Source: a virus. Taken from it: a stretch of DNA of 24,587 nt. The position numbers were made by a program, and so were the translations under genes. Position 1 is the first letter of the stretch. The number at the start of each line of letters is the position of its first letter. Below, piece by piece: positions 294-20,201 of the stretch. A model generated the notes under the pieces. That model was not told the DNA's origin and searched no databases. It saw nothing but the letters and a program-made list of their open reading frames with translations. Where the stretch lies: IMG/VR virus record IMGVR_UViG_3300005435_000050, positions 1-24,587 of that record; one strand, written 5' to 3'.

Positions 294-472
294 TAGGCTC
301 CCTTTCCTAGATAGGTGTGAACCACTGCGCTGACTCCGGCAATGGCTGCGGATAGGATCAGAGCAGTACTGATGGAGCCGCCCTTGACCACAGCTCCTGC
401 AAAGGCAGTCAGGAAGATGACGCCCGCAGTCTGTAGATCGTGCTTGGTGAACTTGGGCAGTAGTCGCTTCAT
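293..472 (-). CDS. Holin-like small membrane protein (59 aa)
   Basis: This 59-residue frame starts at ATG 472-470 and stops with TAA at 295-293. It begins MKRLLPKFTKHDLQ, a short basic N-terminus. Two hydrophobic stretches follow, about residues 15-30 (AGVIFLTAFAGAVV) and 34-54 (SISTALILSAAIAGVSAVV), and the tail is short. Size, two candidate transmembrane helices and position directly after the endolysin fit a holin, which permeabilises the membrane at lysis. It overlaps the endolysin stop and the next gene's start by one base each (TAATG at both ends), so it is probably translated by coupling. Holin function is inferred from context because holins are too diverse for a sequence-only call. 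Confidence 0.75.
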   Translation of the reverse strand: MKRLLPKFTKHDLQTAGVIFLTAFAGAVVKGGSISTALILSAAIAGVSAVVHTYLGKGA

Positions 473-1338
473 TACAGACGCGCCTTCAGCTCTGCCAGGG
501 TCTCAGCAGCATTCTGCTGAGCCGTAGGTGCTCCGGTGACAGTGCCACCAGCCTTCAGTGCAGCCACTTCTGCCTGAAGAGTTTCAACCACGTGGACGAT
601 ATGTCCAACGCGTCCGGCCATCATGGTGATCAGGTCATTGAAGCTCTGCTGACCAGTCCATGTTCCGCCATCCTTGGCGAGATCCGGGTACCAGCCAGTG
701 ACCTGTGCTGGGAAGGTAAGAGGTGTGCTAGGATCCATAGTGTCTCCATTGATCAAATCGGATAGCTGCTGAACAGTGCCCTTGTAGGCGTTGAAGTCTA
801 CAGACTGGCCACCGTAGCTGAAAGCATTGGTGTACTGCCACACCGTAGGTGCTGGCTGTCCAGTGGCGTAGGCTTCCCACCCAGGACCTGTGTCCGAATA
901 GGTGGTGTAGGAGCTGGAGACCAGAATGGCCCCAGCGGCCGTCAGACGGTTCAGATCCCCGCCTACCTGCTCCCAGTACCACTTAGGGAAGTAGACGCCC
1001 CACACACGGCCCCCAAGGGCCTTCAGAGCCGCAATGAAGGCAACGACTACATCCACGCCAGGCTTGCTGGTTCCCTCAGTCTCCACGTCCAACATGCAAG
1101 GAATGTTCCCCGCGAAGTCGTGGTAGTACCTGGCCTGCTCAGCTGGATCAATGCCAGCCTTGAGGAAGTGGTAGCCGGAGAAGACAGCTCCTACGTTGTG
1201 CGCCTGCTCCTTGAAGTTGAAGAAGTCTGCATCCTTGTAGTAGTTACCCTCTGTCGCCTTGGCGATTACAGCAACGGTTCCACCCTGAAGACGCAGACCA
1301 TCTTCATATGAACTGATGTCAGGGAAAGCGATGGTCAC
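472..1338 (-). CDS. Endolysin, GH25 muramidase (lysozyme-type)
   Basis: The 288-residue product starts at a GTG. Residues 1-195 form a glycoside hydrolase 25 domain, the Chalaropsis/Cpl-1 lysozyme type that cuts the MurNAc-GlcNAc bond of peptidoglycan. Visible landmarks are 'PDISSY' (D7), 'AKATEGNYYKD', 'FSGYHFLKAG', 'MLDVETEG' (D84 and E86) and 'VDFNAYKG' (D181). The D7/D84/E86/D181 set matches the acidic active-site pattern of the family. The remainder (about 200-288) has no recognised wall-binding repeat. It ends in a helical, heptad-like stretch (VETLQAEVAALK) that might mediate oligomerisation. The start codon overlaps the stop of the 41-residue gene (GTGA), and the stop overlaps the holin-like start. 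There is no signal peptide, so release would need a holin. Confidence 0.93.
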   Translation of the reverse strand: MTIAFPDISSYEDGLRLQGGTVAVIAKATEGNYYKDADFFNFKEQAHNVGAVFSGYHFLKAGIDPAEQARYYHDFAGNIPCMLDVETEGTSKPGVDVVVAFIAALKALGGRVWGVYFPKWYWEQVGGDLNRLTAAGAILVSSSYTTYSDTGPGWEAYATGQPAPTVWQYTNAFSYGGQSVDFNAYKGTVQQLSDLINGDTMDPSTPLTFPAQVTGWYPDLAKDGGTWTGQQSFNDLITMMAGRVGHIVHVVETLQAEVAALKAGGTVTGAPTAQQNAAETLAELKARL

Positions 1339-1460
1339 TTCAGAATCCTTTCCAAATGCTTCTTAATCCTACGGTGGTGCCACAGGAATCCTGGAACTGC
1401 CACTACGACATTGGGCCAGATCTGATCCCACCACTCGTGTAGGAGTCTAAGTGTTGTCAT
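1335..1460 (-). CDS. Small putative membrane protein (41 aa), lysis region
   Basis: A 41-codon frame runs from ATG 1460-1458 to TGA 1337-1335. The product starts MTTLRLLHEWWDQIWPNVVV, continues with a hydrophobic segment to about residue 27, and ends in a strongly basic helix (HHRRIKKHLERILK). Its start overlaps the stop of the peptidoglycan-binding gene (ATGA), and its stop overlaps the endolysin start (GTGA). It therefore fills an otherwise unexplained 120-nt interval exactly, with coupling signals on both sides, which is the main reason to believe it. One membrane-spanning or amphipathic segment plus a basic C-terminus would suit a lysis accessory or holin/antiholin partner. I do not recognise the family. 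Confidence 0.72.
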   Translation of the reverse strand: MTTLRLLHEWWDQIWPNVVVAVPGFLWHHRRIKKHLERILK

Positions 1461-1801
1461 CCAAACCCAACATCGTCAGAGAATCCTGGTAGCTGATTGA
1501 ATGTCCTGGAAGCGCTCGAACCATCCCATCGGACCCAATCCGTTCCGCTTCCCGAATAGCGTCGGCCATCAGCCTCTGGATCGGCGACCCAATGAAGTTC
1601 ACCGAGTGTTCGCGCTGTGACTGCGTCAACCACGCCCGTGGCCGGGAGTCTGTGGAGTCGCTGCCATCCCCGGATGGCCCGTAGTGTGTCCTCATCTAGT
1701 CTTCCTGTCCTAGGGAGTTTTAGCAGAAGTTGAACGGTTTCTACTTCGTGGCCCACTGCCCCCAGTGAGATATCCTTGTCGAACCAGCTCGGCGTATCCA
1801 T
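1457..1801 (-). CDS. Stand-alone peptidoglycan-binding domain protein (114 aa)
   Basis: Residues about 11-70 form a PG_binding_1-type domain: 'SLGAVGHEVETVQLLLKL', then 'TGRLDEDTLRAIRGWQRLH', then 'LPATGVVDAVTARTLGEL'. This three-helix fold usually sits on cell-wall hydrolases and anchors them to peptidoglycan. No catalytic domain is present here. The C-terminal 40 residues are polar (Gly/Ser/Asp/Arg) with no clear fold. The start is ATG 1801-1799, preceded by a strong ribosome-binding sequence, so the 92-nt overlap with the upstream gene's 3' end looks genuine. The stop overlaps the next gene (ATGA). It may supply the wall affinity that the GH25 endolysin two genes downstream seems to lack. 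That link is inference. Confidence 0.85.
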   Translation of the reverse strand: MDTPSWFDKDISLGAVGHEVETVQLLLKLPRTGRLDEDTLRAIRGWQRLHRLPATGVVDAVTARTLGELHWVADPEADGRRYSGSGTDWVRWDGSSASRTFNQLPGFSDDVGFG

Positions 1802-2007: not shown

Positions 2008-2014
2008 CCTCCTT
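2008..2014 (-). promoter_or_regulatory. Strong Shine-Dalgarno of the membrane/coiled-coil gene
   Basis: On the minus strand AAGGAGG lies 4 nt before the GTG at 2003-2001. It shares bases with the TAA stop of the upstream 683-residue gene. It decides the GTG start. Confidence 0.75.
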
Positions 2015-4064
2015 AAGAGATCACACGGCACTGAAGAATGATATAGCCACCACGGGCATTGGAATCCTGATTACCCGCACTTGATGTCTTTGCCAGTTCA
2101 GGAGACTGCTGTTCGAATGTGTAGTTGTCCACTACCACCAGATTACTGGTATTGTAATTCAGGTCCTGAAGCAGCACTACATTTCCGGAAGCTGTGATAG
2201 CTTCCAGAGCCTGGATACGCTCAAATGAGAAGCCATCATAGCCCGTCTTGATACCATTTCGATCGGTTTCACTGTCCATGCAGAGCAGCGGAATCTCGAT
2301 CATAATCTGGCGACTGACACCCGGAAGTGCCCTCAGCTGATATCCATTCATGGTAGGACTGTAATTAACGTCGCCTGTTCCTGGATGGACTACAAACTTG
2401 AACTGGAACCATTCCTGAGCATTCCCGATATTACCAATCGTGAACGGCTGCGCCGCGCCACTAGTGCTAGAGCCATTGATACCAATAGCAATAGTAGATG
2501 GAGAAGTCAGGCTTGGGTTAAGCCCATAGATATCGATACCACCATCAGGGATATCCTGATGACGAAGATAGACAAACTTGAAGTGCTTAGGCTCAAGTGT
2601 GTTGAATCGAATCTTGGGAGTGTAGAAGAACCCAGAACTCTCGTTGGGCTGGCCCTGCTTACGGGTCAGGTCTGGTGTGTAGACAAAAGCGCCTACAGCG
2701 AAAGCGATGTTGGAGGTTGTGCCCATAGGGGCAATGCTGTTCACAGGCTGTCCACTGACAGCCAGGTCGCCAATCAGGTCATTGCAGTAAGGCTGTCCAC
2801 CGGTGGAAGTCTGCACACCCAGATCAATGCGCATGATCATGTCATGGTTGGAGGCTTCGGGTGGGTTCACCCATCCTGGCTGAGGGATAAGCTTGTTGCC
2901 CTGGTTGCCAATGAACATGAAGCGATCATAACCACCGATAGCCTGGACTCCCACGTTAGTGGGATCCTGCACAATCAGAGGACCATACACGATGTTGCCG
3001 TTGATGTCAGCTTCTGCAACACGGAAACCATGGTTGGTTCCAATGCCCACGAAGTAGCCAATGTAGGCATACATCGATAGAATCTTCTCACCATAAGGCA
3101 TCTGCATAGCTACGATACCGGAGGTAAGCGTTGGCATAGCTCCACCAGAGTCAAGCGTGAACTTGTGCACCTGGCTGATAGCGCCACCTGCATTACCGCT
3201 TACCAGGATGGCCGGACCAATCTCCGAGATGTCTGTGAAGACATACGAAGCATTCTGGTGAGTGAACTTGGGTGTTGGTAGAGTAGGCGGCGATCCGGCT
3301 ACAAGCTCATAGACGTTGTTGTCCATGCCCGCCACAAGGCGACCCTTCACGAACCCAAGAACGTAGTTGGCAGAAGCAGACGAGACGTTCCAGATCTTTG
3401 TAGCTGCCACCAGAGGAGTCGCAATGACTCCCTTGTAGATACCTGTCTTGTCTGCGAAGTAGTAGTTGGTTCCATCATCGGTGAATGTGTTAGCTAGGCC
3501 AGTAAGTCCACCAGGCATCACATAAGCTGTTGTGCTTGTGCCCAGGAAAGTCAGAGACTTTCCACCGATGTCTAGTGCTAGGACACCATCCTGGCCACTA
3601 AGCTGTGTGCTTCGCAGCTTCAGCGGACCGGTGAACGTGTTCGCAACTGTTCGCTGGAGAAGCTTCATTTGCCCAGGGGTGGACAGCATGTCCACACCTT
3701 CAGAGTAGAAGTATCGCTGGCCAAGGGTCTGATCTGTCGTGGTGTCCAGGAACTGTGTTCCTGCTCCCTGGCTGAAGTTGCTCTGGCTACGGAGCCACCA
3801 ACCCCAGATGGACTGCTCTCCGGGTACCTGCTGGTTGTCGAACTGATCCTTGCGGATCGGAGAGAAGGTACGCTGATAGATCCTACGGAAGTAGGATCCA
3901 CGAAGGGATTCACCACCAATGAACGGGATACCCGCAAGAGCATAGTCATATGCAATATCGGTACGCTGGTACAGAGCTGCGAGAGCACTAGGCAGAGGGA
4001 GAATACCGGCGGGGCTTGGCTGAAGGATGCCATTCTGGTTCTGGAGAAAGCTGGTAAGTCCCAT
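2013..4064 (-). CDS. Large tail protein, candidate nozzle (tail tubular protein B-like)
   Basis: A 683-residue protein with no catalytic motif. After an N-terminal segment (to about residue 130, rich in Q, F, Y and R) it consists of repeated short beta strands separated by turns. Examples are 'NYYFADKTGIYKGV', 'FVKGRLVAGMDNNVYELV', 'ISEIGPAILVSGNAGGAISQVHKFTL' and 'GYDRFMFIGNQGNKL'. This pattern is what a beta-propeller or propeller-like fold looks like, and T7-type nozzle proteins (gp12) contain one. Size and position after an adaptor-like gene fit that role in a short tail. The alternative is a large minor tail or receptor-binding protein. The frame is intact, and its ribosome-binding site AAGGA overlaps the stop of the fibre gene. 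The structural role is fairly safe and the nozzle assignment is inference. Confidence 0.72.
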   Translation of the reverse strand: MGLTSFLQNQNGILQPSPAGILPLPSALAALYQRTDIAYDYALAGIPFIGGESLRGSYFRRIYQRTFSPIRKDQFDNQQVPGEQSIWGWWLRSQSNFSQGAGTQFLDTTTDQTLGQRYFYSEGVDMLSTPGQMKLLQRTVANTFTGPLKLRSTQLSGQDGVLALDIGGKSLTFLGTSTTAYVMPGGLTGLANTFTDDGTNYYFADKTGIYKGVIATPLVAATKIWNVSSASANYVLGFVKGRLVAGMDNNVYELVAGSPPTLPTPKFTHQNASYVFTDISEIGPAILVSGNAGGAISQVHKFTLDSGGAMPTLTSGIVAMQMPYGEKILSMYAYIGYFVGIGTNHGFRVAEADINGNIVYGPLIVQDPTNVGVQAIGGYDRFMFIGNQGNKLIPQPGWVNPPEASNHDMIMRIDLGVQTSTGGQPYCNDLIGDLAVSGQPVNSIAPMGTTSNIAFAVGAFVYTPDLTRKQGQPNESSGFFYTPKIRFNTLEPKHFKFVYLRHQDIPDGGIDIYGLNPSLTSPSTIAIGINGSSTSGAAQPFTIGNIGNAQEWFQFKFVVHPGTGDVNYSPTMNGYQLRALPGVSRQIMIEIPLLCMDSETDRNGIKTGYDGFSFERIQALEAITASGNVVLLQDLNYNTSNLVVVDNYTFEQQSPELAKTSSAGNQDSNARGGYIILQCRVIS

Positions 4065-4072
4065 GTGAATCC

Positions 4073-5248
4073 TTAGACCAAACCGTACAGAGTGAAGGAA
4101 GATCCCGTTACGAAGTTTCCTGCATCCGGCAGGAGGGTCACGCTAGTGATAGCGGCTGTGCTAGCCCACGTTCCACCCATAGTTCCCGCGAATCCGTTAG
4201 TCGGAGATCCAACAGCATTGAATCCGGAATGGGCAGACTTGAACATAGATGTACTCTGAGCATTGGGGATCCAGAAGCTACCGGAGCCAAAGTAGTTAGC
4301 CGTATCATTAGCAGCTGTCTTGGCACCAATGTGAATCATGCTGACAGCGCCAGCGCTGTTCTGACCACTCACAGTAGCAGTGTTCGCCAGGACGATTTCC
4401 CAAGCGTAGTTGTTTCCACTGTCACCGTTGAACTGAAGGTTGACGAAACCACCAGTTGCAGCATTGTTGGTGCGGGCAGTGTATGCACCCTGGATAGTGT
4501 TCACCCAGGAAGGAACGTTGATTGTGGTAGAGGCACCAGTCGGAGCAGTTGTTCCCAACTTCACACGACCACCAAGAGGTGTCCATGTTCCGGGAGTTCC
4601 ACCAGCTGTGCAGATCCACAGGGAGTTGAACGTAGTGTCAACTACGATGTCACCAGTATTGAATGTTCCCGAAGAGGGACCAGTTGTAGAGGCAGCTGTG
4701 CTGAAGGCACCCACGAGACCGCTAGTCTGGGCTGTAGCTCCTGTGAGCCCTGTGAAACGGAAGAAGCCCTCTGTGACACTGCCAGTGCCGGACCAAGCAC
4801 CAGAGCCCATAGTCTGAGCACCAGTGTACTGTCCGCTACTGATGACCTTGTTGGTCAGTGTCTGAGAGTCTGTGGTTCCCACCACAGACGAACTACTAGT
4901 AAGACCATGAACAGCGTGGCCAGATGCATCCGGGGAAGAGGATGCATCGATGTGAGAGCGTGACTCTCGGAAGTCACGACCAATGTTACCATGGGTCACC
5001 GTGGCGTTCACGTTGTGGGCCAGGCCTGTTGTGCCATCAATGGCACGAGTGATCGTAAGGTTCAGACCGGCAATGTTGGTTACGTCTACAGGTTCCTGGT
5101 TCGACTGGCCAATGTCAAGGACCGCAGTGAAAGGAACGGCAGGCATGCCAAGTGTAGACGCCACCGGCATGGTTGTGGCAACCGATGTGATACCCGAAGT
5201 AATGAAAGTCTGGGGCACGTTGGTTGCATACTGCTGACCAGTTGGCAT
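4073..5248 (-). CDS. Tail fibre protein
   Basis: A 391-residue protein with three recognisable parts. Residues 1-95 form an N-terminal fibre-attachment style domain ('VATTMPVAST', 'FTAVLDIGQSNQEPVDVTNI', 'LTITRAIDGTTGLAHN', 'ATVTHG'). The sequence 'VGTTDSQTLTNKVISSG' near residue 125 is the short repeat motif that recurs in many phage fibre shafts. The C-terminal 150 residues form a beta-rich tip ending 'ITSVTLLPDAGNFVTGSSFTLYGLV', a common fibre-tip ending. The sequence is rich in Thr, Ser, Gly and Ala with few charged residues, as usual for trimeric fibres. It probably contributes to host recognition. It lies between the putative adaptor and nozzle genes, separated by 8 nt from each. Confidence 0.83.
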   Translation of the reverse strand: MPTGQQYATNVPQTFITSGITSVATTMPVASTLGMPAVPFTAVLDIGQSNQEPVDVTNIAGLNLTITRAIDGTTGLAHNVNATVTHGNIGRDFRESRSHIDASSSPDASGHAVHGLTSSSSVVGTTDSQTLTNKVISSGQYTGAQTMGSGAWSGTGSVTEGFFRFTGLTGATAQTSGLVGAFSTAASTTGPSSGTFNTGDIVVDTTFNSLWICTAGGTPGTWTPLGGRVKLGTTAPTGASTTINVPSWVNTIQGAYTARTNNAATGGFVNLQFNGDSGNNYAWEIVLANTATVSGQNSAGAVSMIHIGAKTAANDTANYFGSGSFWIPNAQSTSMFKSAHSGFNAVGSPTNGFAGTMGGTWASTAAITSVTLLPDAGNFVTGSSFTLYGLV

Positions 5249-5256
5249 GTTGACCC

Positions 5257-6162
5257 TTAGAAGTCGAAGTGGGATGGAATCTGGAAACGGTCACGCTGCT
5301 TCGCAGCTTCCTGCTCCAGGCGCTGTAGATAGAGCTGGCCGAAATACTGGGACACCTTGCTGGCAGCACCAGGCTGCGTGTACTGAGCACGCTCAGAGGC
5401 CTCTACAGAGGTGATAGAGAGACGTGGACCCTCAAGCTGGGGGGAGAGCTTCATGCAGGCGCCATACACGATGACATCCTGTGCAGTAGCCGGAAGACCC
5501 GTGATCGTAGCGAAGTCATCTGTAAGGTTGACCAACTCCGTTGGTTCCTTGCGGTAGGTAACGAAGATCTGCCTACCCGGCACAACGTCATCACCAATGA
5601 AGATAGACTTACCAGTGGAGCCAAGCTCGCCAGTGGCGATGTTGGCCTGTCCTACAAAGCGCCAGTTTTGCGCGAACCGCCAGACGTGCGACGGACCGAT
5701 GAGCTGGTACTGGACCGAGATGACTTCCTCCGCATCGGCGGGGAGTCCATATTCGTAGACGACGGAGATCTTGGGGATCGACGCGGTGTTGATCGCCCAA
5801 AGTTGGGGGTAGACGGAGCGGATGGCATCGTTGATAGCCTCTGTCAGTCGAACTGTCGGCCAGATCGGAGAGTTCTCAATCTTGGCTCCGAGCAGGTGGG
5901 AACTAGCCGTGGTTGAAGAATAACCACGGCCGAAGGATGAGATATTCACTGTGTTAGTAGTCTGGTTCACCGACTGCACAAGCATCAGTTCCTGATTGTC
6001 CACCTCAATGGTTCCACGCGAAACCTGTGTGGCATCAGCCACGGTGAAGGAAGTCTGCGAGTTGTTGATGTTCGCAGCAAGAGAGGTGAACTGCTGCTGG
6101 TTCTGGGAGAAGCCTGCAAGCTCCTGACGAACACGGTCAACCAGGTTCTGAAGTGTTGGCAT
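5257..6162 (-). CDS. Candidate head-tail adaptor (tail tubular protein A-like)
   Basis: A 301-residue protein. The N-terminus (MPTLQNLVDRVRQELAGF) is helical. A beta domain follows at about 25-105 ('TSFTVADATQVSRGTIEVDNQELMLV', 'ISSFGRGYSST'), then a helix 'LTEAINDAIRSVYPQLWAI' near residue 115. The C-terminal half alternates strands and helices and ends in a charged helix. A helix of the form 'EAINDAIRSVYPQLW' is reminiscent of adaptor proteins that form the ring between portal and tail. With the putative nozzle and fibre genes directly downstream, a T7 gp11-like adaptor is my best guess. A minor tail or head-tail connector role is the alternative. ATG 6162-6160 directly abuts the upstream TAA. 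Confidence 0.6.
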   Translation of the reverse strand: MPTLQNLVDRVRQELAGFSQNQQQFTSLAANINNSQTSFTVADATQVSRGTIEVDNQELMLVQSVNQTTNTVNISSFGRGYSSTTASSHLLGAKIENSPIWPTVRLTEAINDAIRSVYPQLWAINTASIPKISVVYEYGLPADAEEVISVQYQLIGPSHVWRFAQNWRFVGQANIATGELGSTGKSIFIGDDVVPGRQIFVTYRKEPTELVNLTDDFATITGLPATAQDVIVYGACMKLSPQLEGPRLSITSVEASERAQYTQPGAASKVSQYFGQLYLQRLEQEAAKQRDRFQIPSHFDF

Positions 6163-10453: not shown

Positions 10454-11602
10454 CTAGAACCCTGGTGCGCCAGCAGTTTGCTGCTGGAACGAGGACTTCT
10501 GGACTCCGGACTCACCGGAGAAGGCTGCTGTTTCCTGCTTGCCCAGCTGCTCCGCAGCATACTGTGCCTGGCCACTGGAGCCAAGGTACTGTTGCTCAAG
10601 AGTCTGCTGGTTGACGGGAACCTGCGAGCTGTAGATCTGGGATAGCTTCTGTGCAGTTGGGAGGATATCAGCGATACGCTGGTATGCACTCTGTGCCTGC
10701 TGGTAAGTGTCACCCATCTGGGCGTACTTCAAAGAGTCAGCTGCGCTGATCTGAAGGTTCTGCTGGAGTGCTGCTCCACCGATCTGAGCCTGGTTCAACT
10801 TCAGCTGAAGGGCTGGAGTTGGGTTCTGATCGTTGAGGAAGTAGGCAGCCAGATCACCAGTGCCGATACCCAACTGGTTGAAGTACTGGGTCACCTGAGG
10901 TGGTGCCTGTGTCGTGGCCTGGACAGCCATGTTCACACGATCCTGCAACTCGGTAGGACTCACGTCCTTGCCAATCCACTCAGCAAAGTTCGACTGATTA
11001 TCGAAGTGGTCGCTGAGACCATTCTGCCGAAGAAGCTGCTTGTAGGATGCCTCTGTGGACAGATACTCGGCAGGTGTCAGAACCTGTAGACCGTTCTTGG
11101 TACGGGCATCGTTCCCCGCGAACCGCTGCTTGTACTCTGGTGTCTGCTGAAGCAGCACCGTGATGGTGTCGCTCCCATAGCCATTCTGAAGATACTGAAG
11201 AATCTTCGGGGCTAGCGAGCCCAGTCCATACGAATTGAACAGCGTGGTGAGCGCAGCATAGGCATCTCGTTCCTGTCCAGGAACACCCTGTAGCTCTTGC
11301 TCCAATGGAGACAGGTTGCTTGGAGCAGGTGATCCCGAGTTTCCCATCGGGTAGTACAGTGTACCATTGGACAAGGACATGCCTGCAACAAGCGGAACTC
11401 GCTTGCCGTTGTGCTCAATGCTCGGATTATACTTCAACAGCGTAGCTACTGGGATACCTAGCCTGGCTGCGATAGTAGCAGGCGTATCGCCTGCCTTAAT
11501 GGTATAGGTGTGTGTAGCGGAGGCAGCACGTGTAGCATTGGAGGTACCAGAGAACTGCGCACCAGAAGGCATGGGAGCCTGCTGGCCCGGGGCTGTTGCC
11601 AT
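10454..11602 (-). CDS. LysM-domain virion protein, candidate ejected or internal protein (382 aa)
   Basis: Residues about 31-80 form a LysM domain ('HTYTIKAGDTPATIAARLGI', 'VATLLKYNPSI', 'VPLVAGMSL'), which binds peptidoglycan or chitin-like glycans. Before it is a Pro/Gln/Ser linker, and there is no signal peptide. After it, residues 100-340 are largely helical with conserved-looking blocks ('VLLQQTPEYKQRFAGNDAR', 'LTPAEYLSTEASYKQLLRQN', 'KDVSPTELQDRVNMAVQA') and a Gln/Ala-rich C-terminus. Its position after a lytic transglycosylase and an NlpC/P60 peptidase suggests the three act together on the wall during DNA entry. Alternatively it is a minor structural protein. The start is supported by AGGAG just before the ATG. 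The hairpin and tRNA follow downstream. Confidence 0.82.
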   Translation of the reverse strand: MATAPGQQAPMPSGAQFSGTSNATRAASATHTYTIKAGDTPATIAARLGIPVATLLKYNPSIEHNGKRVPLVAGMSLSNGTLYYPMGNSGSPAPSNLSPLEQELQGVPGQERDAYAALTTLFNSYGLGSLAPKILQYLQNGYGSDTITVLLQQTPEYKQRFAGNDARTKNGLQVLTPAEYLSTEASYKQLLRQNGLSDHFDNQSNFAEWIGKDVSPTELQDRVNMAVQATTQAPPQVTQYFNQLGIGTGDLAAYFLNDQNPTPALQLKLNQAQIGGAALQQNLQISAADSLKYAQMGDTYQQAQSAYQRIADILPTAQKLSQIYSSQVPVNQQTLEQQYLGSSGQAQYAAEQLGKQETAAFSGESGVQKSSFQQQTAGAPGF

Positions 11603-11610
11603 AGGTTCTC

Positions 11611-12912
11611 CTAGTACTCAAAGCCGAAGTTTACCAACACCTGATGAGCATTGGCCATAAATGCGTCCTGTGCATTGTCGGTGGACATCCACCGTGGATC
11701 CTGACGAACCTGCTTCTCAAAATCATACATGGGCATAGCCGTAGGCTGCCCATCCTGCGTATACTGCAACGCAGACTTGATCATAGGTGTCTGAATATTG
11801 ACGGATCCAGGACCCATCTCAAGCAGCTGCTGCGCACGCTGCATGTACGGAGAGGCGATATCGGATAGGTTCATGCCACTATTGATCTGCTTAGAATAGG
11901 CCGGATACATAGAGGCTGCTTGTGTGCGAAGCTGGGCCGACACACCCTGCACAGACTGCTTACCAGCCACAATCTGCTGGATCTGCTGATCCAGCTGAGA
12001 CTCAGGCATGAACACGCCAAGGTCCATCATAGACTGGCGGATCTGGTCTTCGTAGGAACCTGCCTGACCACCGAAGTGGTTGCCGGATACAGGCTTCAGA
12101 AAGGCCGCCATCTTCTGGTCAAGCACCGCAGTGTTCTGATCGTACCCGTTGGTGATCGCATCAATAGCGATCTGCTGTGCCTGCTGGGGAGTCAACTGAA
12201 CACCAAGCTGAGCAGCCGTGGCTGTCATCTGTGTCTGAAGGTTGTTGATGTTCTGGTTCCAGGTGGCCGGGTCAGACTTCATAGTGGCGAAAGCCTGACG
12301 GGCTGTAGCACTTGTGGTAGCCCACCAATGGCTATTCTGAATAGCTGCAATGAACTTGTCTGTAGACCATGTTCCGGATACAGCCTGGTTGTAAATGCCC
12401 TGAAGCTCAGGTACGGCAGTAATGAGGGCGGCAACCGTAGGATACTCAGAGCGTAGCTGATCCAAAGATAGCACTGGTTGGTTATCAGGAATGAATTGAG
12501 ATACGTTGCTATTGTTCAGGCTGATGCCTGAGTTATCCGTGGTAGCTTGCCCCAGGTTTGGCAGGTTGGCCTCAGATAGAATCGTATTGGCATAGCCTGC
12601 CTTACCACTTGTATCGCCATTGTAAGCAGACAGTGCTAGGTACAGGTTTCCCTTGTTCTGCTCAAGGAGCTTTCGCATGTAGCCGACGTAGGCGCTCAGC
12701 TCAGCCTTCAAATCTGTCTGACTTCCACTGGACCAGTCAGCCCATGTGGAAGGAAGGAACTGAACGATACCCTTCTCGCCGAACTGACCAACCGCATTGT
12801 TGTTGAATCCAGACTCATGGTCAATCTGAGCAGCCACCACAGCTACTGGAATGTTCAGCTGCTTCGCAGCATCAGCAACCCACTGCATGTACTGGGGTGG
12901 AACGTTAACCAT
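11611..12912 (-). CDS. Lytic transglycosylase (SLT) virion protein with C-terminal helical module (433 aa)
   Basis: Residues 1-115 are a soluble lytic transglycosylase domain. The catalytic Glu is E33 in 'AAQIDHESGFNNNAVG', followed by 'GIVQFLPSTW' (48-57) and the closing 'LALSAYNGD' (92-100). These enzymes cleave peptidoglycan glycan strands to 1,6-anhydro ends. Residues about 151-433 form a long helical module, unrelated to the enzyme, that recurs in the upstream NlpC/P60 protein: 'AVSGTWSTDKFIAAIQNSHW' near 177 and 'MYDFEKQVRQDPRWMSTDNA' near 395. T7 gp16 is a known precedent for an ejected transglycosylase. The absence of a signal peptide and the position fit that role. TAATG overlaps the upstream stop. 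Confidence 0.88.
   Translation of the reverse strand: MVNVPPQYMQWVADAAKQLNIPVAVVAAQIDHESGFNNNAVGQFGEKGIVQFLPSTWADWSSGSQTDLKAELSAYVGYMRKLLEQNKGNLYLALSAYNGDTSGKAGYANTILSEANLPNLGQATTDNSGISLNNSNVSQFIPDNQPVLSLDQLRSEYPTVAALITAVPELQGIYNQAVSGTWSTDKFIAAIQNSHWWATTSATARQAFATMKSDPATWNQNINNLQTQMTATAAQLGVQLTPQQAQQIAIDAITNGYDQNTAVLDQKMAAFLKPVSGNHFGGQAGSYEDQIRQSMMDLGVFMPESQLDQQIQQIVAGKQSVQGVSAQLRTQAASMYPAYSKQINSGMNLSDIASPYMQRAQQLLEMGPGSVNIQTPMIKSALQYTQDGQPTAMPMYDFEKQVRQDPRWMSTDNAQDAFMANAHQVLVNFGFEY
11614..12462 (-). repeat. Paralogous C-terminal module, copy in the SLT protein
   Basis: This covers codons 151-433 of the transglycosylase. It aligns by eye over its whole length with 13095-13934, with a GTWSTDKF block (12352-12375), a PAYxKxINxGM block and a YDFEKQ block in the same order. 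It is a divergent protein-level duplication with no long DNA-level identity. Confidence 0.85.
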
Positions 12913-14474
12913 TACTTCTCCTGGAAGCTTGTATCAGGAGCCAGGGAGCTGGCTGTAGGAGCCTGTGTTGGAGGGGCCTGCTGCTGTCCCTGAAGGGTTG
13001 GGAAGTTGGTGCTGCCACTAAGACCACCGAAGTTGGCTCGCGAGTTGTCTGTAACGCTCTGAGGGCTTGTCTGCGGAGTAGGCCCAAGGTCGCCAGACAC
13101 AAGACCCATGTCCGATAGAACCTGTCCTGCTGTCTGAGTCATGGACTCACGGGCGTTGTTCGTGGACAACCACTTGGCGTTGCTTCGCAACTGCTTCTCA
13201 AAATCGTACAGCGGAAGTTGAGAGGGAACTGCATCCTGGCCCTGTGTAGTGGTGCTCTGTAGAGCACCGCGTAGCGTAGGATCGAACAGGTCAATCCTGT
13301 TAGGATCAACCTCCCAGAGCTTTGCCTGTGCTGCGAGATAAGGAGCAGCGATCTGACCTACGGTCATACCATCGTTGATTTCCTTGGCATAAGCCGGAAA
13401 CGTCTGCGCAGCAATGGTCTGGATATTCGCTCGGCGGGCCTGTAGGCTATCCGTTCCAGCGACAATGCCAGAGACTGCGCGTTCCACATAGTCATCCGTG
13501 ACAGGGACGCCCATCTCGCGAGCATACTCGCGTACACCAAGCTCAACCTGCCCGGCATAGCCACTGAAGTGTCCCTGCTGAGACAGCTCCAAGTACTTGG
13601 ACAAATAGGCATTGATCTGACTGTCATTCATGTTGGTGACGAGGGCGAGATTTGCAAGGGAGGACATACCCGTGGAGGACAGGTGAACACCTAGCTTGGA
13701 AGCCAGATCAGTGAGTTCCAGGGTCTTGTTCTGCATGTCCTGGTTGTAGGCTGCCGGATCAGCGGTCTTCTCCTGAAGCACCTTGCGGGCACTATCGCTG
13801 TTTGCCTTCCACCAGTCAGTGTTCTGCAATGCAGCCTGGAACTTATCAGTAGACCAGGTGCCTGCCACAGCCTCACTGTAGATGTTGGCCAGTTCAGGAT
13901 CAGATTCCATGAAGGAAGCTGCTAGTCCATAGTTCTCATTCAACGTGCTGGAGTTGGGAGACTGTAGACCAAGTGACCCAAACAGATCATAGGTTGGGCG
14001 TGCGCTTGGAAGAAGCGCACTGTAGTCTGCACCATTCACTCCTGTGAAGCCAGCAGAGGTGGCATGTGTCAGACCGCCATCAAACACATTGGTGTTGACA
14101 ACACCACCGACACGGCCAACTCCTGTGATTCGAGCCTCTGTAGAGACAGGCACCACATGAATAGTTGTTCCCGTGTGGTCGGCAACCAGAACCATACCAT
14201 TACCAGCATACATACCAACGTGATCAGATGTGCCATTGTTGGAGGAGTCGAAGAAGACAAGGTCTCCAACCTGCGCCTGTCCCATAGGGATAGAGCGAAG
14301 TGCAGCAATCTGAGCATTGGAAGTACGAGGGATGTTCATCCCGAAGTGCTGATAACCGTACCACATCAAACCCGAACAGTCGAAGCCACCAGGAGCTTGA
14401 CCGCCCCACACATAGGGCTGTCCGATGAACTGCTCCAGGTAGTGGAAGACATCATCACCAGAAACTGTAGCCAC
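12912..14474 (-). CDS. NlpC/P60 peptidase virion protein with C-terminal helical module (520 aa)
   Basis: The domain begins 'DVFHYLEQFIGQPYVWGG' and carries 'GGFDCSGLMWYGYQHF' (catalytic Cys33), 'SDHVGMYAGNGM' (His85) and His100 in 'VLVADHTG'. This is the Cys-His-His triad of NlpC/P60 endopeptidases that cut stem peptides of peptidoglycan. Residues about 181-460 are the same helical module found in the downstream transglycosylase. The tail (460-520) is Pro/Gln/Thr-rich. I place the start at GTG 14474 with GAGGAG 9 nt upstream. A longer frame reaches 14894, but its first 100 residues overlap the upstream gene and have shadow-like Ser/Arg/Leu composition. It is probably ejected or tail-associated, opening peptide crosslinks while its neighbour cuts glycans. 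The stop overlaps the next start (TAATG). Confidence 0.87.
   Translation of the reverse strand: MATVSGDDVFHYLEQFIGQPYVWGGQAPGGFDCSGLMWYGYQHFGMNIPRTSNAQIAALRSIPMGQAQVGDLVFFDSSNNGTSDHVGMYAGNGMVLVADHTGTTIHVVPVSTEARITGVGRVGGVVNTNVFDGGLTHATSAGFTGVNGADYSALLPSARPTYDLFGSLGLQSPNSSTLNENYGLAASFMESDPELANIYSEAVAGTWSTDKFQAALQNTDWWKANSDSARKVLQEKTADPAAYNQDMQNKTLELTDLASKLGVHLSSTGMSSLANLALVTNMNDSQINAYLSKYLELSQQGHFSGYAGQVELGVREYAREMGVPVTDDYVERAVSGIVAGTDSLQARRANIQTIAAQTFPAYAKEINDGMTVGQIAAPYLAAQAKLWEVDPNRIDLFDPTLRGALQSTTTQGQDAVPSQLPLYDFEKQLRSNAKWLSTNNARESMTQTAGQVLSDMGLVSGDLGPTPQTSPQSVTDNSRANFGGLSGSTNFPTLQGQQQAPPTQAPTASSLAPDTSFQEK
13095..13934 (-). repeat. Paralogous C-terminal module, copy in the NlpC/P60 protein
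   Basis: This covers codons 181-460 of the NlpC/P60 protein and is the partner of the copy at 11614-12462. The shared blocks are GTWSTDKF (13839-13862), PAYxKxINxGM, and PLYDFEKQLR followed by WLSTNNA. Order and spacing match the other copy. Confidence 0.85.
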
Positions 14475-14586: not shown

Positions 14587-15633
14587 CTATGGGACGGTAG
14601 TGGTCGGTCCGGATGCTTCCATTCCGGAAGCGGGGCCAGCAAGTGCCTTGATGAAGGCATTGAAGTAAGTTGTAGCTGCCTGGTAGGCTCCCTCTTCGGG
14701 AGACTGGAGAGCCTGCTGTCCGGCAAGGAACTGAATACCACGCTGAGCAATGCCACGCTGAGACACAGTATTCGTGAGCGTAGAGGTACCACCTGTAGAT
14801 CCAGACTGGTCCACCGGCATACCTGTAGAAGGATCGACCTGACCCACGCTCGAACCCTTTTCAGTGGTTTCGAACTTGCCGGTGTTTTCCTCACTTTGAT
14901 ACTGATACAGGCTGTTGAAGAATGCCTGATACTCGGACTGGGTTGGGTTGCGCCCCATCAGTCGAAAGTAGGAATCCGCTAGCGTACCAGCTGCGGTTGC
15001 TGGGTCAACGTACGACTTATAGACAGTCTCTGTCTGCGAGTCTGTGCTCGCAGAGTTGTTCGGGTTTCCGTTGCCAATGACACCGACATCCCCGGGAGCC
15101 TGCTTTGCATTGATGTTGTTCCAGCCCGTCTGGGCTGCCTTAGCGAGTACTTCATCCGGCGAGTACATGGACGTATCGCCATTAGGATCAGATACCTGAA
15201 GCGCGGCTTCCTGGACAACCATCTGCCAGGCTAGCGCTACCTCAGATGCACTTGGCGCCTTCTTGCTGGTGATAAGACCAGCCTGGTACATCTCGTCGAT
15301 GTACTTCTGACGCTGATTCGCATTGCCGTACCAGGTCTCAATAGAGCCCAGCGCGGTGTTGAAATTCTCGTAACTACCACCGTGCACTGTAGCCCCAACA
15401 GGCATGTTGCCCTTGATGTTGGAGTTCAGTGTCAGTGTGATGACCTTACCGTTGACCGTGATAGTGGCCTGAGGCAGAGTAGTTCCAGCAGAGTCTACTT
15501 GGACGTTCTGGACTAGGCCACTATTCGGACTGGCAGGGTTTAGATTGGCTGGAGCATTGGGGTTGCCCTGATCAGCGGGCGCTGCTCCTAGCGAAGGGCC
15601 TGGGGATGGCTGGGGAGGAGTTGGATTAGCCAT
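14587..15633 (-). CDS. Probable internal virion protein (348 aa)
   Basis: The product begins with a Pro/Asn/Ala-rich, disordered-looking stretch (MANPTPPQPSPGPSLGAAPA, to about residue 55). A short beta part follows ('TITVNGKVITLTLNSN'), then a helical region from about residue 90 ('SIETWYGNANQRQKYIDEMY', 'SASEVALAWQMVVQEAALQ'). Near residue 222 comes 'ADSYFRLMGRNPTQSEYQAF', a compact helical motif of the 'LMGRxPTxxE' kind seen in phage structural proteins. The C-terminus has a Gly/Ser/Thr linker and a final helix. There is no enzyme motif. Position between the 1522-residue protein and the NlpC/P60 protein suggests it belongs to the same internal or ejected set. The start overlaps the upstream stop (TAATG). 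Function is not recognised. Confidence 0.75.
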   Translation of the reverse strand: MANPTPPQPSPGPSLGAAPADQGNPNAPANLNPASPNSGLVQNVQVDSAGTTLPQATITVNGKVITLTLNSNIKGNMPVGATVHGGSYENFNTALGSIETWYGNANQRQKYIDEMYQAGLITSKKAPSASEVALAWQMVVQEAALQVSDPNGDTSMYSPDEVLAKAAQTGWNNINAKQAPGDVGVIGNGNPNNSASTDSQTETVYKSYVDPATAAGTLADSYFRLMGRNPTQSEYQAFFNSLYQYQSEENTGKFETTEKGSSVGQVDPSTGMPVDQSGSTGGTSTLTNTVSQRGIAQRGIQFLAGQQALQSPEEGAYQAATTYFNAFIKALAGPASGMEASGPTTTVP

Positions 15634-18600
15634 TAGTGCATGGGTTCCTTCCAGTCATCCTTGCGTAGGAATCGATCATAGAGTTGCGCAAACTTGGTAT
15701 CCGCCTGCATACGATCAGCCACCCAGTTGTCATACTCCTGAGCCAGATCCGCATTGGATGCAGCTGTCAAGGTCTTAGCCTTGCGCTTCTGGAGAGCAGC
15801 GTAGATGGTGTCTCGGATCTGAGAATAGGCATGCAGAGAGCGGATGTCACTTCGCATCGGATTGGACAGTAGAGCTGGGTCCTGAGCAATCTGGAACAGC
15901 CCCTGAATACGGTTCATGTAATCGTTCTGGTTGTATGCACCGTAGTTCGTGTAGAACTCAGGGTTGTAGCGGGTGTCCTGCGGATCACCCGTAGCTGCTA
16001 CAAAGTTGTTCAGGTAGGCCTTCAGGTCCTTGGCCTTTGGGTCATTGACGCTAGTCAATCCTCGTGCGGATAGCAGCGACTGAACCTGAGCAGATAGCTG
16101 GCCATACTGAGCCCAACCGGTATTGATCTGAGCCTGCTTGGCGGCATCCTGTGGAGAGAGCTTCTGTCGAAGCCCCTGAGACACTTGCCAGTCATAGGCC
16201 ATCTGGTCAAAGTTTCCGTTTCCCTCTGGCCCCACAATAGCGGCGGAGAGTTCAGGGAACTGCTTCAGCAGGCCTGCATACTTTCGTACGGCTACCGATG
16301 CTCCTACAGTTGCCGAGATCCCAGAGGGATCTGTAGCTAGCGACTGCGTGAACACCATGCCAGCCTTGCCATACTTATCATAGAAGTCCTGGCGGGCGTT
16401 CTTGGAATCAGCTGCCTGCATCCTTCGATACTCATCGATCAAGTACTGGTGAGAAGGAGCTGGCTTGAATCCTAGCGGAGATAGACGGTTAGCGAATAGA
16501 TCCACCACTGTCAGATACTTCGCTGTGTTCTCAATGTTTCCCCAGTCAGGCGGTGTAGTCCGCTGACCATTTAGGTAATCGTAGTACTGCTCCTGGTAGA
16601 TGGACCACACGTTCTTCGCATACTGAGAGGAAGAATCAGGACTACCAACCAATAGGTTGGATAGCGCTACAACATCATTCGCTCCCGAGGGAAGAATCTG
16701 CTGCATACTGTTCTGATCCACCATGTTGTTCAGCATGGAACGAACAACAGCGTTGTTCATCAGAGAAGGGTGATCCTTCACGATCTGGTTGGCTGGAACA
16801 GCCACCAGAGGACCGAACCCAGGATTGCCGATAGCATCGATGTAGGTCGGAGACACTAGAGTCTTCGCATCGATAGGAACGTCCGTCAGCCCACCAAGAG
16901 AACCAGCCAGAGCCTTGGGCATGTGAAGCACAAAGGAGGTGTTCTCCCATGGCGTGTTGACATTAGCCTTCTGCCCAGTGGTATTATCGATGGTGAACGG
17001 AGAGTTCCACAGCAGGCGCTTAGCCTGGTAGGCACGCCCAAGTAGTCCTGGATTCTCCATGATCAGCTTGGACCAAGTACTCATGGCGTTGAACCAAGCA
17101 TTGAAGAACGGACTCACAAAGCGAAGCGTATGTCCCATATCGTTGAAGCGGGACACATCATAGACCAGGTTCTTCAGGTCAGATCGCGCACCCGCGTGAG
17201 CGGCTGCCACAAGCATATCACGATCGCTCTTAGCCAGAACAGACTCACCTGTGTCCCTCATCCAAGACTGCACGCTGTCAGTAAGACGAGACTTGTACAG
17301 CGTGTTGTATAGCGGGTGGCGAACAATGATGTCATCCGGCATAGTGCCGGTCATCTCCATCAGCCACTCGGTAGACTTCTTCAGGATGTTGGTAGGGCCA
17401 TCTCCACCGTGCACAAGTGCAGCGATGTTAGCATTGATATCAGGTCGCATCTTGGCGTCTGGCATGAACTGCTCAATAGTCTTGGCATTGAACTTACCAG
17501 CCAAAGCAGCATCTCGCATGCCATCGAAGGGCAGATACTGCTTCACCATGGAAGCAACCTCGTTGACCTTCACATCAGGATCACCAACATGCAGGGCCTT
17601 CATGTACTGACGGCCCTCAGAGGTTCCTGTCATCCACTGTGATACAGCATCCAGGTCCTTGCCAGCAATGATCTGCTTGGCTACAGGATCAGGCAGTAGC
17701 TGGTTGCGGATGTAGTGAACGTAAGCGGGTGTGTGCTTCTCAGCATCATCAACAGCAGAGATGGTAGCGAAGCCAGGACCACGAATGGCCATCTGCATAG
17801 AGTGCGTCATCTTAGACGCACCATCGATAGTGCTCATAAAGGCAGGATGAGAACTGGAGACCCAACGGTAGTAGTCTCCATTAGGGCCACCAAAGGCCTC
17901 ATCCCAGCGCTCAGGAGAGCCCGCGATAGTGAACGTGCGCTCACCCAGACGATGGGTCTGGTTGATGAAGTCAAACTTCATCTTCTTCAAGTTATTGTAG
18001 TACTGCTTCTTGGCCAAGAGGTCAGAAGCCTTGATACGAGTTTCCTTAGGGACGTTTCGCCATCCCAGAGCCTTCTGCGTACGATACTGATTGAGCAGGC
18101 CCTCGTAGTCATTCTTTGCAAGACCGATCATCTGATCATGCTTCGACATGACGTTGTTCACGATCATGTTGTTGGTCAGGCGGTTACCATTGTTGCGAAG
18201 GAAGTTTCCGAAACCATCCTGTAGGTTACGCAGCGAAGCCAGCGCACCAACCTTAGCAACTCCGCGAAGGAAGTCGTCACCAATGTGGTTGAAGGCACGG
18301 TGACCGGTCATCAGAGTGACAGGCTTCCATACACCATAGATATTGTCCAGAGCATAGCCCAGAGCATCCTTAGACGTTGCGTAGGCGCTTCGTAGAGGGG
18401 CGAGTACCCCGCTGTCCTGCATGCGCTCTAGCGCGTTCTCCAGCTGCTTGAGGTTAGCCAGCGGAACAGCACCAGACTCCAGCTGGGTGATCAGCTGCGG
18501 ATGAGCAATGATCTGCTCATCGGCGGTAGGAAGCACACCCTGAGGATCCATACCAGGAACATTGATCTCACCATACGCACGAGACTTGGCAGCCTGGTAG

Positions 18601-20201
18601 ATGGTCTGACCCTTCTTACGTGTGGTAGTAAGAATCTTGGCCATCTGGTTATCAGAGATACCGAAGCGGTCACCGACGTTCTTGTAAACATCGTTCTCGA
18701 TGCTGGTCCAGATCTGCTGACGCTGAGCTACAGTTGCGTTAGCGTAGCGCTGTACGTAGTCAACCTTCTGCTCTGGTGTGAGCGTGGAGGACTTGTTCAG
18801 CCACGTACGTGCGTATTCAACCGCGTTGTCCTCATTGTGGTTGATAAGGCCTGGAACCCTATCAGTCAGAGACTGATAGATACGGATTGGGTAGTTGTAA
18901 CGAGCATTCTGGAAGATGTGCACGATAGAAGTATCGCGGGTGTTGACATACTTGCCAGCACCCTTCAGCTCAGCCAGGCGGTTAGTCAGCGCCGAAGTCT
19001 TAGTGATAGACTGTTGTGCACCGAAGATCTGGGACAGGCGGTTTGCTACGATATCATTGTCAGCAATCTGCGCCTGAGCAGCCTTGACCTTAGTCTGGGC
19101 TACCTTCTGAAGCCATTCATCACGATCACCCTCGACTGCCGAAGTAAGAGCATAGTTCTGCTCCACCTCAAGCGGCATAAGAGCATTAGAGATCTGGTTT
19201 GCCAAGTTCTCATTTTGAGTAGCCAGCATGTCTAGGGCAGAGCTGGAAACCTGAGGAATTCCCGCCAGAATCTGACGGATCATCCTAGACTCACCAGGAG
19301 TCTTGGCAGCATCAAGTAGAGCAGCGGTAGTGTAGCGGAAAGGGTTGGGCTGGTGGGGAGATCCCTTGACCATCGGGTGCTCCGCAAGGGAGGCAAAGTT
19401 GTAGCGGCCGTTTGCAACATCCTGGTCGAACTGCTGACCAGAATCAGAAGCGATCTTATCTAGCTTCTGAGCCACCGTGTCTGTAGACACGATAGGAGCA
19501 TCCTTCAGGGCGCGGATCACACCAGCAGCCTTGGTGATGTGGTTGGATGGATCAGCATACCAATCAATGGCAGCATCTTCACCACCCGAAGCAATCTGCA
19601 TACCCGCATGCAGCGGGTTGTTCTTGTCGTTCAGGTACTGGTCACGCTGAGCCACATTCAGTGGATCGACCACCTGGTGGCCTGGAGACCATTGAGGCTT
19701 GATCGGCCCGATGGGCTGCTGATCGTTGGCAGCAAGAACCGTAGCACGTCCAGGACTGATATGCGCAGACTGATCCCACGCCTGAGCCCATAGAGAACCC
19801 TGGGCCCAAGACCAGTTAGGATGTCCCTGCGAAGCCTCAAACTCATTGTGAGCAGAGTACAGAGCAATCGTCGTATATGGACGCTTGATCAGATTAGTGA
19901 ACAGCCAGTTGGTCGCATGAAAAACAGGAGAGATGGTGTGCGACTCGACATCATGCCAGATCTGGCCGATGTCCTGGAAAGGGTTGGTCAGAGACCATCC
20001 CTTAGACTTGTCTGGCTGCTGCTCCTGCTGAGCAGCCTGTTCCTGAGCGGAGGTGATAGCAGCTAGGTTTTGCTGGTCCTGAATTTGCTGGGTGCCAACA
20101 GCCTGGGAAGTGCCCAGTGTGCCGGACTGTCCTAGCGCACCAGAGGTGCCGAGAGAGCCGCTAGCTCCCTGAGCTTCCGGCTGGAAGGGCTGGACTGTCA
20201 C
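15633..20201 (-). CDS. Giant putative internal virion/ejection protein (1522 aa)
   Basis: This is the longest gene in the window and has an intact frame. Residues 1-66 are low complexity, with short 'LGTSG'-like repeats followed by a Gln/Ala-rich stretch. The rest is mostly helical and charged, without a catalytic motif I can name. Less polar patches occur near residue 620 ('YGVWKPVTLMTGHRAFNHIG') and near 1030 ('LRFVSPFFNAWFNAMSTW'). The second loosely resembles segments in other giant phage proteins. There are no tape-measure-type hydrophobic repeats or frameshift partner upstream. With NlpC/P60, SLT and LysM proteins directly downstream, it is most likely an ejected internal protein like T7 gp16 or the N4 virion proteins in role, not sequence. 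The start is GTG 20201 with GAGG 9 nt upstream, despite a 41-nt overlap with the preceding gene. Confidence 0.8.
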   Translation of the reverse strand: MTVQPFQPEAQGASGSLGTSGALGQSGTLGTSQAVGTQQIQDQQNLAAITSAQEQAAQQEQQPDKSKGWSLTNPFQDIGQIWHDVESHTISPVFHATNWLFTNLIKRPYTTIALYSAHNEFEASQGHPNWSWAQGSLWAQAWDQSAHISPGRATVLAANDQQPIGPIKPQWSPGHQVVDPLNVAQRDQYLNDKNNPLHAGMQIASGGEDAAIDWYADPSNHITKAAGVIRALKDAPIVSTDTVAQKLDKIASDSGQQFDQDVANGRYNFASLAEHPMVKGSPHQPNPFRYTTAALLDAAKTPGESRMIRQILAGIPQVSSSALDMLATQNENLANQISNALMPLEVEQNYALTSAVEGDRDEWLQKVAQTKVKAAQAQIADNDIVANRLSQIFGAQQSITKTSALTNRLAELKGAGKYVNTRDTSIVHIFQNARYNYPIRIYQSLTDRVPGLINHNEDNAVEYARTWLNKSSTLTPEQKVDYVQRYANATVAQRQQIWTSIENDVYKNVGDRFGISDNQMAKILTTTRKKGQTIYQAAKSRAYGEINVPGMDPQGVLPTADEQIIAHPQLITQLESGAVPLANLKQLENALERMQDSGVLAPLRSAYATSKDALGYALDNIYGVWKPVTLMTGHRAFNHIGDDFLRGVAKVGALASLRNLQDGFGNFLRNNGNRLTNNMIVNNVMSKHDQMIGLAKNDYEGLLNQYRTQKALGWRNVPKETRIKASDLLAKKQYYNNLKKMKFDFINQTHRLGERTFTIAGSPERWDEAFGGPNGDYYRWVSSSHPAFMSTIDGASKMTHSMQMAIRGPGFATISAVDDAEKHTPAYVHYIRNQLLPDPVAKQIIAGKDLDAVSQWMTGTSEGRQYMKALHVGDPDVKVNEVASMVKQYLPFDGMRDAALAGKFNAKTIEQFMPDAKMRPDINANIAALVHGGDGPTNILKKSTEWLMEMTGTMPDDIIVRHPLYNTLYKSRLTDSVQSWMRDTGESVLAKSDRDMLVAAAHAGARSDLKNLVYDVSRFNDMGHTLRFVSPFFNAWFNAMSTWSKLIMENPGLLGRAYQAKRLLWNSPFTIDNTTGQKANVNTPWENTSFVLHMPKALAGSLGGLTDVPIDAKTLVSPTYIDAIGNPGFGPLVAVPANQIVKDHPSLMNNAVVRSMLNNMVDQNSMQQILPSGANDVVALSNLLVGSPDSSSQYAKNVWSIYQEQYYDYLNGQRTTPPDWGNIENTAKYLTVVDLFANRLSPLGFKPAPSHQYLIDEYRRMQAADSKNARQDFYDKYGKAGMVFTQSLATDPSGISATVGASVAVRKYAGLLKQFPELSAAIVGPEGNGNFDQMAYDWQVSQGLRQKLSPQDAAKQAQINTGWAQYGQLSAQVQSLLSARGLTSVNDPKAKDLKAYLNNFVAATGDPQDTRYNPEFYTNYGAYNQNDYMNRIQGLFQIAQDPALLSNPMRSDIRSLHAYSQIRDTIYAALQKRKAKTLTAASNADLAQEYDNWVADRMQADTKFAQLYDRFLRKDDWKEPMH

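Follow-up and report, generated by a model that had tools for sequence, protein, structure and literature searches.

The locus reported here invites comparison with the ejection proteins of T7. One of these, gp16, has a transglycosylase at its N-terminus, and movement of lysin domains from one ejection protein to another is known (PMC8954989). Most descriptions of such proteins concern podoviruses that infect Gram-negative bacteria; phi29-like phages, with Gram-positive hosts, are said to lack them (PMC8954989). Two groups of actinophages share genes with the locus. Relatives among the Streptomyces Beephvirinae (cluster BF) that have been imaged by TEM are podoviruses with tails of ~16 nm, and cluster BF has no identifiable tape measure (PMC11536984; PMC13097060). 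The Planktophila phages E7 and F5 are cultured isolates (OX376640, OX376641), and the paper describing their isolation reported an ~8-kb island encoding proteins without homologues in the other of the two phages (PMC10202952).

Here, we analyzed the whole of a 24.6-kb virus record from IMG/VR (24,587 nucleotides), hereafter called the window. Its minus strand forms one long structural block, in which a partial terminase gene and the portal gene are followed by small genes, by the genes for a 1522-aa protein, a 348-aa protein, an NlpC/P60 protein (gene 1), an SLT protein (gene 2), and a LysM protein, and then by the genes for a scaffold-like protein and the major capsid protein. Later structural genes come next, and then a GH25-type endolysin gene. 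The cassette that contains the two hydrolases is thus encoded between the portal and scaffold/major capsid genes, whereas adaptor and fibre genes (2013-6162) lie apart from the pair. Judged from its relatives, the window phage would be a podovirus with an actinobacterial host. Near the endolysin gene, a 114-aa ORF (1457-1801, minus strand) looks, by eye, like a peptidoglycan-binding domain. Coordinates are collected in Table 1.

Table 1. Features of the hydrolase cassette and the endolysin gene in the window
Feature	Position	Strand	Basis or remark
GH25-type endolysin, separate from the hydrolase pair	472-1338		
LysM + phrog_8424 protein, 382 aa; LysM at about 11414-11506	10454-11602	-	Pfam and PHROGs matches
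Gene 2 (433 aa): SLT head plus module	11611-12912	-	Pfam and PHROGs matches
C-terminal core of module (~170 residues), kept in hydrolase-free Planktophila-phage proteins	11614-12126	-	hhalign E 5.9e-21; HMM positions ~95-290 matched
Module copy 2 (residues ~140-433)	11614-12495	-	All-helical model, pLDDT mostly 83-96
SLT lytic-transglycosylase head (residues ~1-117)	12562-12912	-	Pfam SLT E 1.3e-10, 41 bits vs cut-off 21.3
Gene 1 (520 aa): NlpC/P60 head plus module	12912-14474	-	GTG start 14474, GAGGAG upstream
C-terminal tail of the gene-1 protein (residues ~461-520), rich in Q/P/S and predicted to be disordered	12915-13094	-	pLDDT < 50
Module copy 1 (residues ~166-458), phrog_6654 region	13101-13979	-	All-helical model, pLDDT mostly 70-89
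NlpC/P60 head (residues ~1-127)	14094-14474	-	Pfam NLPC_P60 E 3.2e-25, above cut-off
348-aa protein, always upstream of the pair; homologue fused to module core in Planktophila phages	14587-15633	-	Family in 40 ORFs; profile score higher than in any of 200 shuffles
1522-aa protein, candidate large internal/ejection protein	15633-20201	-	Sequence homology

A C-terminal module shared by two hydrolases

The NlpC/P60 and SLT proteins both end in a module of ~290 residues. BLASTP aligned residues ~132-431 of the SLT protein (about 12519-11620) with residues ~146-458 of the NlpC/P60 protein (about 14039-13101) at 34% identity and 57% positives over 315 residues (201 bits, E 3e-62). Profiles built from the window's clade only, one from NlpC-bearing and the other from SLT-bearing modules, matched over 280 columns with 100% probability (E 1.1e-48). 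A first-pass annotation of the DNA had proposed a long C-terminal region common to the two proteins, and both the alignment and the profile comparison bear this out, with the three sets of motifs that it had picked out all in register; its length of 280 residues was a slight underestimate, the module being nearer 290. Modeled singly, each protein is predicted to consist of its own head, SLT or NlpC/P60, joined to a helical module.

PDB fold searches with both predicted proteins returned match lists filled by the heads, with no match to the module seen among them, and a profile search of PDB sequences with the module yielded nothing convincing. The best module-only match among viral predicted structures was an uncharacterised phage protein of 271 residues (TM 0.79, own length). 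The W-rich N- and C-terminal motifs of the module look alike; profile comparisons made for an internal repeat, and for similarity between the module and the phrog_8424 domain, both gave background-level values.

The initial reading did not recognise the module from any named family; that it belongs to no known family was not supported. The profile phrog_6654 (PHROGs v4, unknown function) matches both window proteins over the full module length (E 3.7e-72 and 1.3e-81) and is matched by all 63 members of alignment A2. PHROGs assigns no function to this family, neither Pfam nor NCBIfam has a model covering the module, and our literature search found no paper naming phrog_6654. The module is a family already present in public data, the identity and job of which had not previously been worked out. 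Within an annotated phage collection, the records that contain it are 29 from Streptomyces Beephvirinae and two from Planktophila phages. A scan of bacterial genomes, which reaches close relatives only, gave no match with the window SLT protein; with gp13 of the Streptomyces phage Stella, a scan of the same reach matched the head and not the module. Relatives of the Stella-type gene-2 head that lack the module were seen in MAG contigs L079-L082, from Reyranella, Microvirga, and Kaiserbacteria bins.

The usual endolysin has a C-terminal binding domain after an N-terminal enzyme, and the position of the module, together with the LysM domain on a neighboring protein, could be taken to mean that the shared region acts like the binding domain of a modular endolysin, bringing two lysins to the peptidoglycan or wall polymers of the host. 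We consider this improbable, given that the ~290 helical residues match no Pfam or NCBIfam wall-binding domain, that a scan of the genome collection, reaching close relatives, recovered the Stella gene-2 head, but not the module, in bacterial contigs, and that the module is embedded in a structural cassette and is retained in proteins that carry no enzyme.

Catalytic heads and their exchange

The N-terminal enzymes are unrelated, as had been supposed at first pass: they match different Pfam families (SLT, E 1e-10; NLPC_P60, E 3e-25) and are predicted to adopt different folds. The predicted papain-like fold of the NlpC/P60 head resembles NlpC/P60 structures with Z scores of 16-20.6 over ~120 residues (1.4-2.3 Å; best match, Z 20.6, 124 residues, 1.5 Å), and the catalytic Cys (DCSG) and His (DHVG) are conserved. 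The third NlpC catalytic position is Val in 12 out of 12 window-clade proteins shown, whereas most Streptomyces-phage homologues have His; the window-clade head may be impaired or may use another residue. The start of gene 1 is most plausibly the GTG at 14474, as suggested by the alignment and a ribosome-binding-like site. For the SLT head, which contains HESGFN and AYNG motifs, the predicted lysozyme-like fold matches lytic transglycosylases with Z scores of 11-13.5 over ~117-124 residues (2.5-3 Å; best match, Z 13.5, 117 residues, 2.7 Å).

Among the loci retrieved from IMG/VR, taken together with those of the window and of Stella, 37 have genes 1 and 2 adjacent and in the same order, with NlpC/P60 first in 37 of 37. 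The head of gene 2 varies among these loci, being of the window SLT type in 11, of a divergent SLT type in 23, and something else in 3. Two of these carry a Pfam SLT_3 head and sit at separate places on the module tree (L037 and L040), and in another, L044, gene 2 (L044:11295-12170) encodes the module alone, with a GTG start at the module boundary and no hydrolase head. Since the heads vary and the module is kept, heads turn over on a constant chassis, and the early idea of a duplicated module with swapped catalytic heads holds up, gene 2 occurring with at least two SLT-type heads, with SLT_3, or with none.

Wherever gene 2 was seen with an enzymatic head, that head was a member of the lysozyme/transglycosylase superfamily. 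Domains of this superfamily are expected to cut glycan strands and NlpC/P60 domains to cut stem peptides, so the pair would combine a predicted peptide cutter with a predicted glycan cutter. As both heads come from hydrolase families that are used in endolysins, the proteins could conceivably act in lysis at the end of the cycle rather than at entry. This is very improbable, because the window has a separate GH25-type endolysin gene (472-1338), Stella gp3 is annotated as an endolysin, the pair lies within a structural block, and some homologues have no enzyme at all.

The modules of the window NlpC, window SLT, Streptomyces-phage NlpC, and Streptomyces-phage gene-2 proteins each form a clade, and the module tree pairs the paralogues within each phage clade (99/96). 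Such grouping by phage clade would suggest separate duplications or gene conversion; a single ancestral duplication was not rejected by the AU test (p 0.21).

The surrounding cassette and its replacement in Planktophila phages

A block of five genes, encoding a large protein, a 348-like protein, gene 1, gene 2, and a phrog_8424 protein, recurs across relatives. For the 1522-aa protein of the window, homology to Stella gp10 extends along most of the protein (E 6e-78), and there is also homology to the 1711-aa protein of F5 (E 1.3e-6). The phrog_8424 protein has LysM as an optional N-terminal head; this head is present in some window-clade members and absent from others (L009, L012) and from the Streptomyces phages, Stella included; its presence varies within the set L005, L009, L012, and L017.

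Streptomyces Beephvirinae have this tandem pair in 29 records, under the annotation “minor tail protein” or “glycosylase.” In Stella, gp12 (NlpC) and gp13 are side by side, with order and neighbors matching the window, and are labeled “minor tail protein.” Considering the ~16-nm tails of these phages and the lack of a tape measure, a protein of >1500 aa beside the hydrolases reads more easily as an internal or ejection protein than as a tape measure.

In E7, F5, and related contigs, the equivalent position is occupied by a single module protein of 364-443 aa without a hydrolase head, the C-terminal ~150-200 residues of which match the module core (E7-type hhalign E 5.9e-21; F5 versus the window NlpC module, E 1.6e-12). 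There is moderate evidence, based mainly on shuffles and matching gene position, that these proteins join the module core to a 348-like portion. Compared with the 348-aa protein, the N-terminal part gave a profile score of 30.6, whereas 200 shuffled controls reached no more than 25.2. The 348-family HMM matched the F5 protein with E 0.0015; the hhalign probability was only 13%, and unrelated short comparisons gave similar P values. As the C-terminal half of the module persists without a hydrolase, the module is more than an enzyme carrier. With this qualification, the duplicated C-terminal module proposed at first pass stands; its attachment may be to the internal core, to the tail, or to the partner enzyme.

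The DNA of E7 and F5 is 93-97% identical on both flanks of one ~8.5-kb segment that has no nucleotide match (L002:2340-10888 for E7; L066:3547-11813 for F5). Three proteins of the cassette are encoded in this segment: large, module, and phrog_8424-type. The island proteins are remote relatives from the same families, with 26% identity between the phrog_8424-type proteins of E7 and F5 (E 1e-10), and the module proteins of both phages match the window modules. Going by these sequence comparisons, the E7/F5 island is an allelic replacement of the same three-protein cassette. The fact that the large, module, and phrog_8424 genes differ together suggests that their products work together, although a single recombination event can also swap neighboring genes that encode non-interacting products.

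A possible ejection apparatus and its likeness to known systems

The explanation we favor, with a probability somewhat better than even, is that phrog_6654 is a virion chassis domain in an ejection-type cassette of actinophage-like podoviruses, and that its duplicated copies carry NlpC/P60 and lysozyme-superfamily heads that would open the wall at DNA entry. Gene position, synteny, and the E7/F5 block replacement agree with, and fit, a virion-chassis role. Three further considerations speak for ejection: a separate endolysin is present in the window and annotated in Stella; heads change while the module stays, the third protein likewise having an optional LysM head; and T7 gp16 offers the precedent of an N-terminal transglycosylase among ejection proteins between which lysin domains move (PMC8954989). 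Against it count the depositors' naming of homologues as “minor tail protein,” a gene order unlike that of T7, and the lack of similarity to T7 gp14-16. Where in the virion the proteins sit, what they assemble with, when they act, and whether their heads are active enzymes are matters of inference; our search found no virion proteomics or structure for any module-family member.

In the proposed mechanism, the module would have been duplicated, each copy carrying a different N-terminal peptidoglycan hydrolase, and the C-terminal modules would pack with the 1522-aa, 348-aa, and phrog_8424 proteins into an internal or portal-proximal assembly. At infection, the module proteins would exit with the DNA, and their heads would cut glycan and peptide bonds, so that the wall is breached locally before the genome passes. 

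The main rival is that the module docks both hydrolases on the outside of the short tail, as tail-tip lysins that drill the wall by contact. The phi29-like phages have tail-knob lysins with a similar division of labor, and many NlpC/P60 and SLT domains occur in phage tail proteins. The depositors' annotation of the homologues as minor tail proteins points the same way, as do the NlpC/P60 proteins of enterococcal podoviruses, which have been placed near a possible tailspike (PMC10194240). We nevertheless regard a tail-tip location as rather unlikely: the genes lie between portal and scaffold, away from the adaptor and fibre genes (2013-6162), the block includes a >1500-aa protein even though the tails are only ~16 nm, and the module core persists without hydrolases.

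The ejection reading can be extended, more tentatively, to the possibility that actinobacterial podoviruses have their own, non-T7 ejection apparatus, in which two paralogous chassis subunits co-assemble with complementary glycan- and peptide-cutting heads, the whole cassette evolves and recombines as a unit, and turnover of the heads follows the wall of the host. A conserved cassette found in phages of both Streptomyces and Planktophila would be a candidate means by which such phages breach the cell wall, and the reading supplies a functional hypothesis for PHROG families 6654 and 8424 and for the 348-aa and large-protein families, which are now mislabeled or unlabeled. Laboratory Streptomyces phages in culture would allow the exchange of heads on an unchanging chassis to be tested.

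Among the closest known systems is phrog_6654, to which Stella gp12/gp13 belong: the window modules match this family over its full length (E 4e-72 and 1e-81), and Stella has the same tandem pair, order, and neighbors. The window clade differs from Stella in its different, sequence-divergent SLT head, in having Val at the third NlpC position and a third protein with LysM, and in the disordered gene-1 tail, which is missing from Stella gp12, where the protein terminates with the module. The single module proteins of E7/F5 and phrog_34303 share a C-terminal core of ~170 residues and neighbors with the window; they differ in having one copy, no hydrolase head, and an N-terminal part that resembles the 348-aa protein.

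With regard to T7, hmmsearch without filters and hhalign gave background scores only when the module, 348, 8424, and large families were compared with gp14, gp15, and gp16, and given this lack of homology we do not class the cassette as a member of the T7 ejection-protein family. The window also differs from T7 in having two separate enzymes on paralogous carriers, in the position of the cassette upstream of the scaffold gene (the internal-protein genes of T7 are downstream of the capsid gene), and in the likely Gram-positive-type hosts of such phages. By maximal 19-residue hydropathy, a crude measure of membrane-spanning segments such as gp14- and gp16-like proteins should have, the large proteins of the cassette score 1.08-1.41, versus 1.44 for T7 gp16. 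Some features are shared: the window SLT head has a hit (E 1e-13) to phrog_342, a family labeled “internal virion protein with endolysin domain,” its predicted fold aligns with that of T7 gp16 (9jyy_I; Z 11.4, 126 residues, 3.5 Å), and in both cases an N-terminal hydrolase is carried by a virion protein, putatively so here, that adjoins a protein of >1000 aa. In these respects the cassette resembles T7 gp16, which may serve as its working functional analogue.
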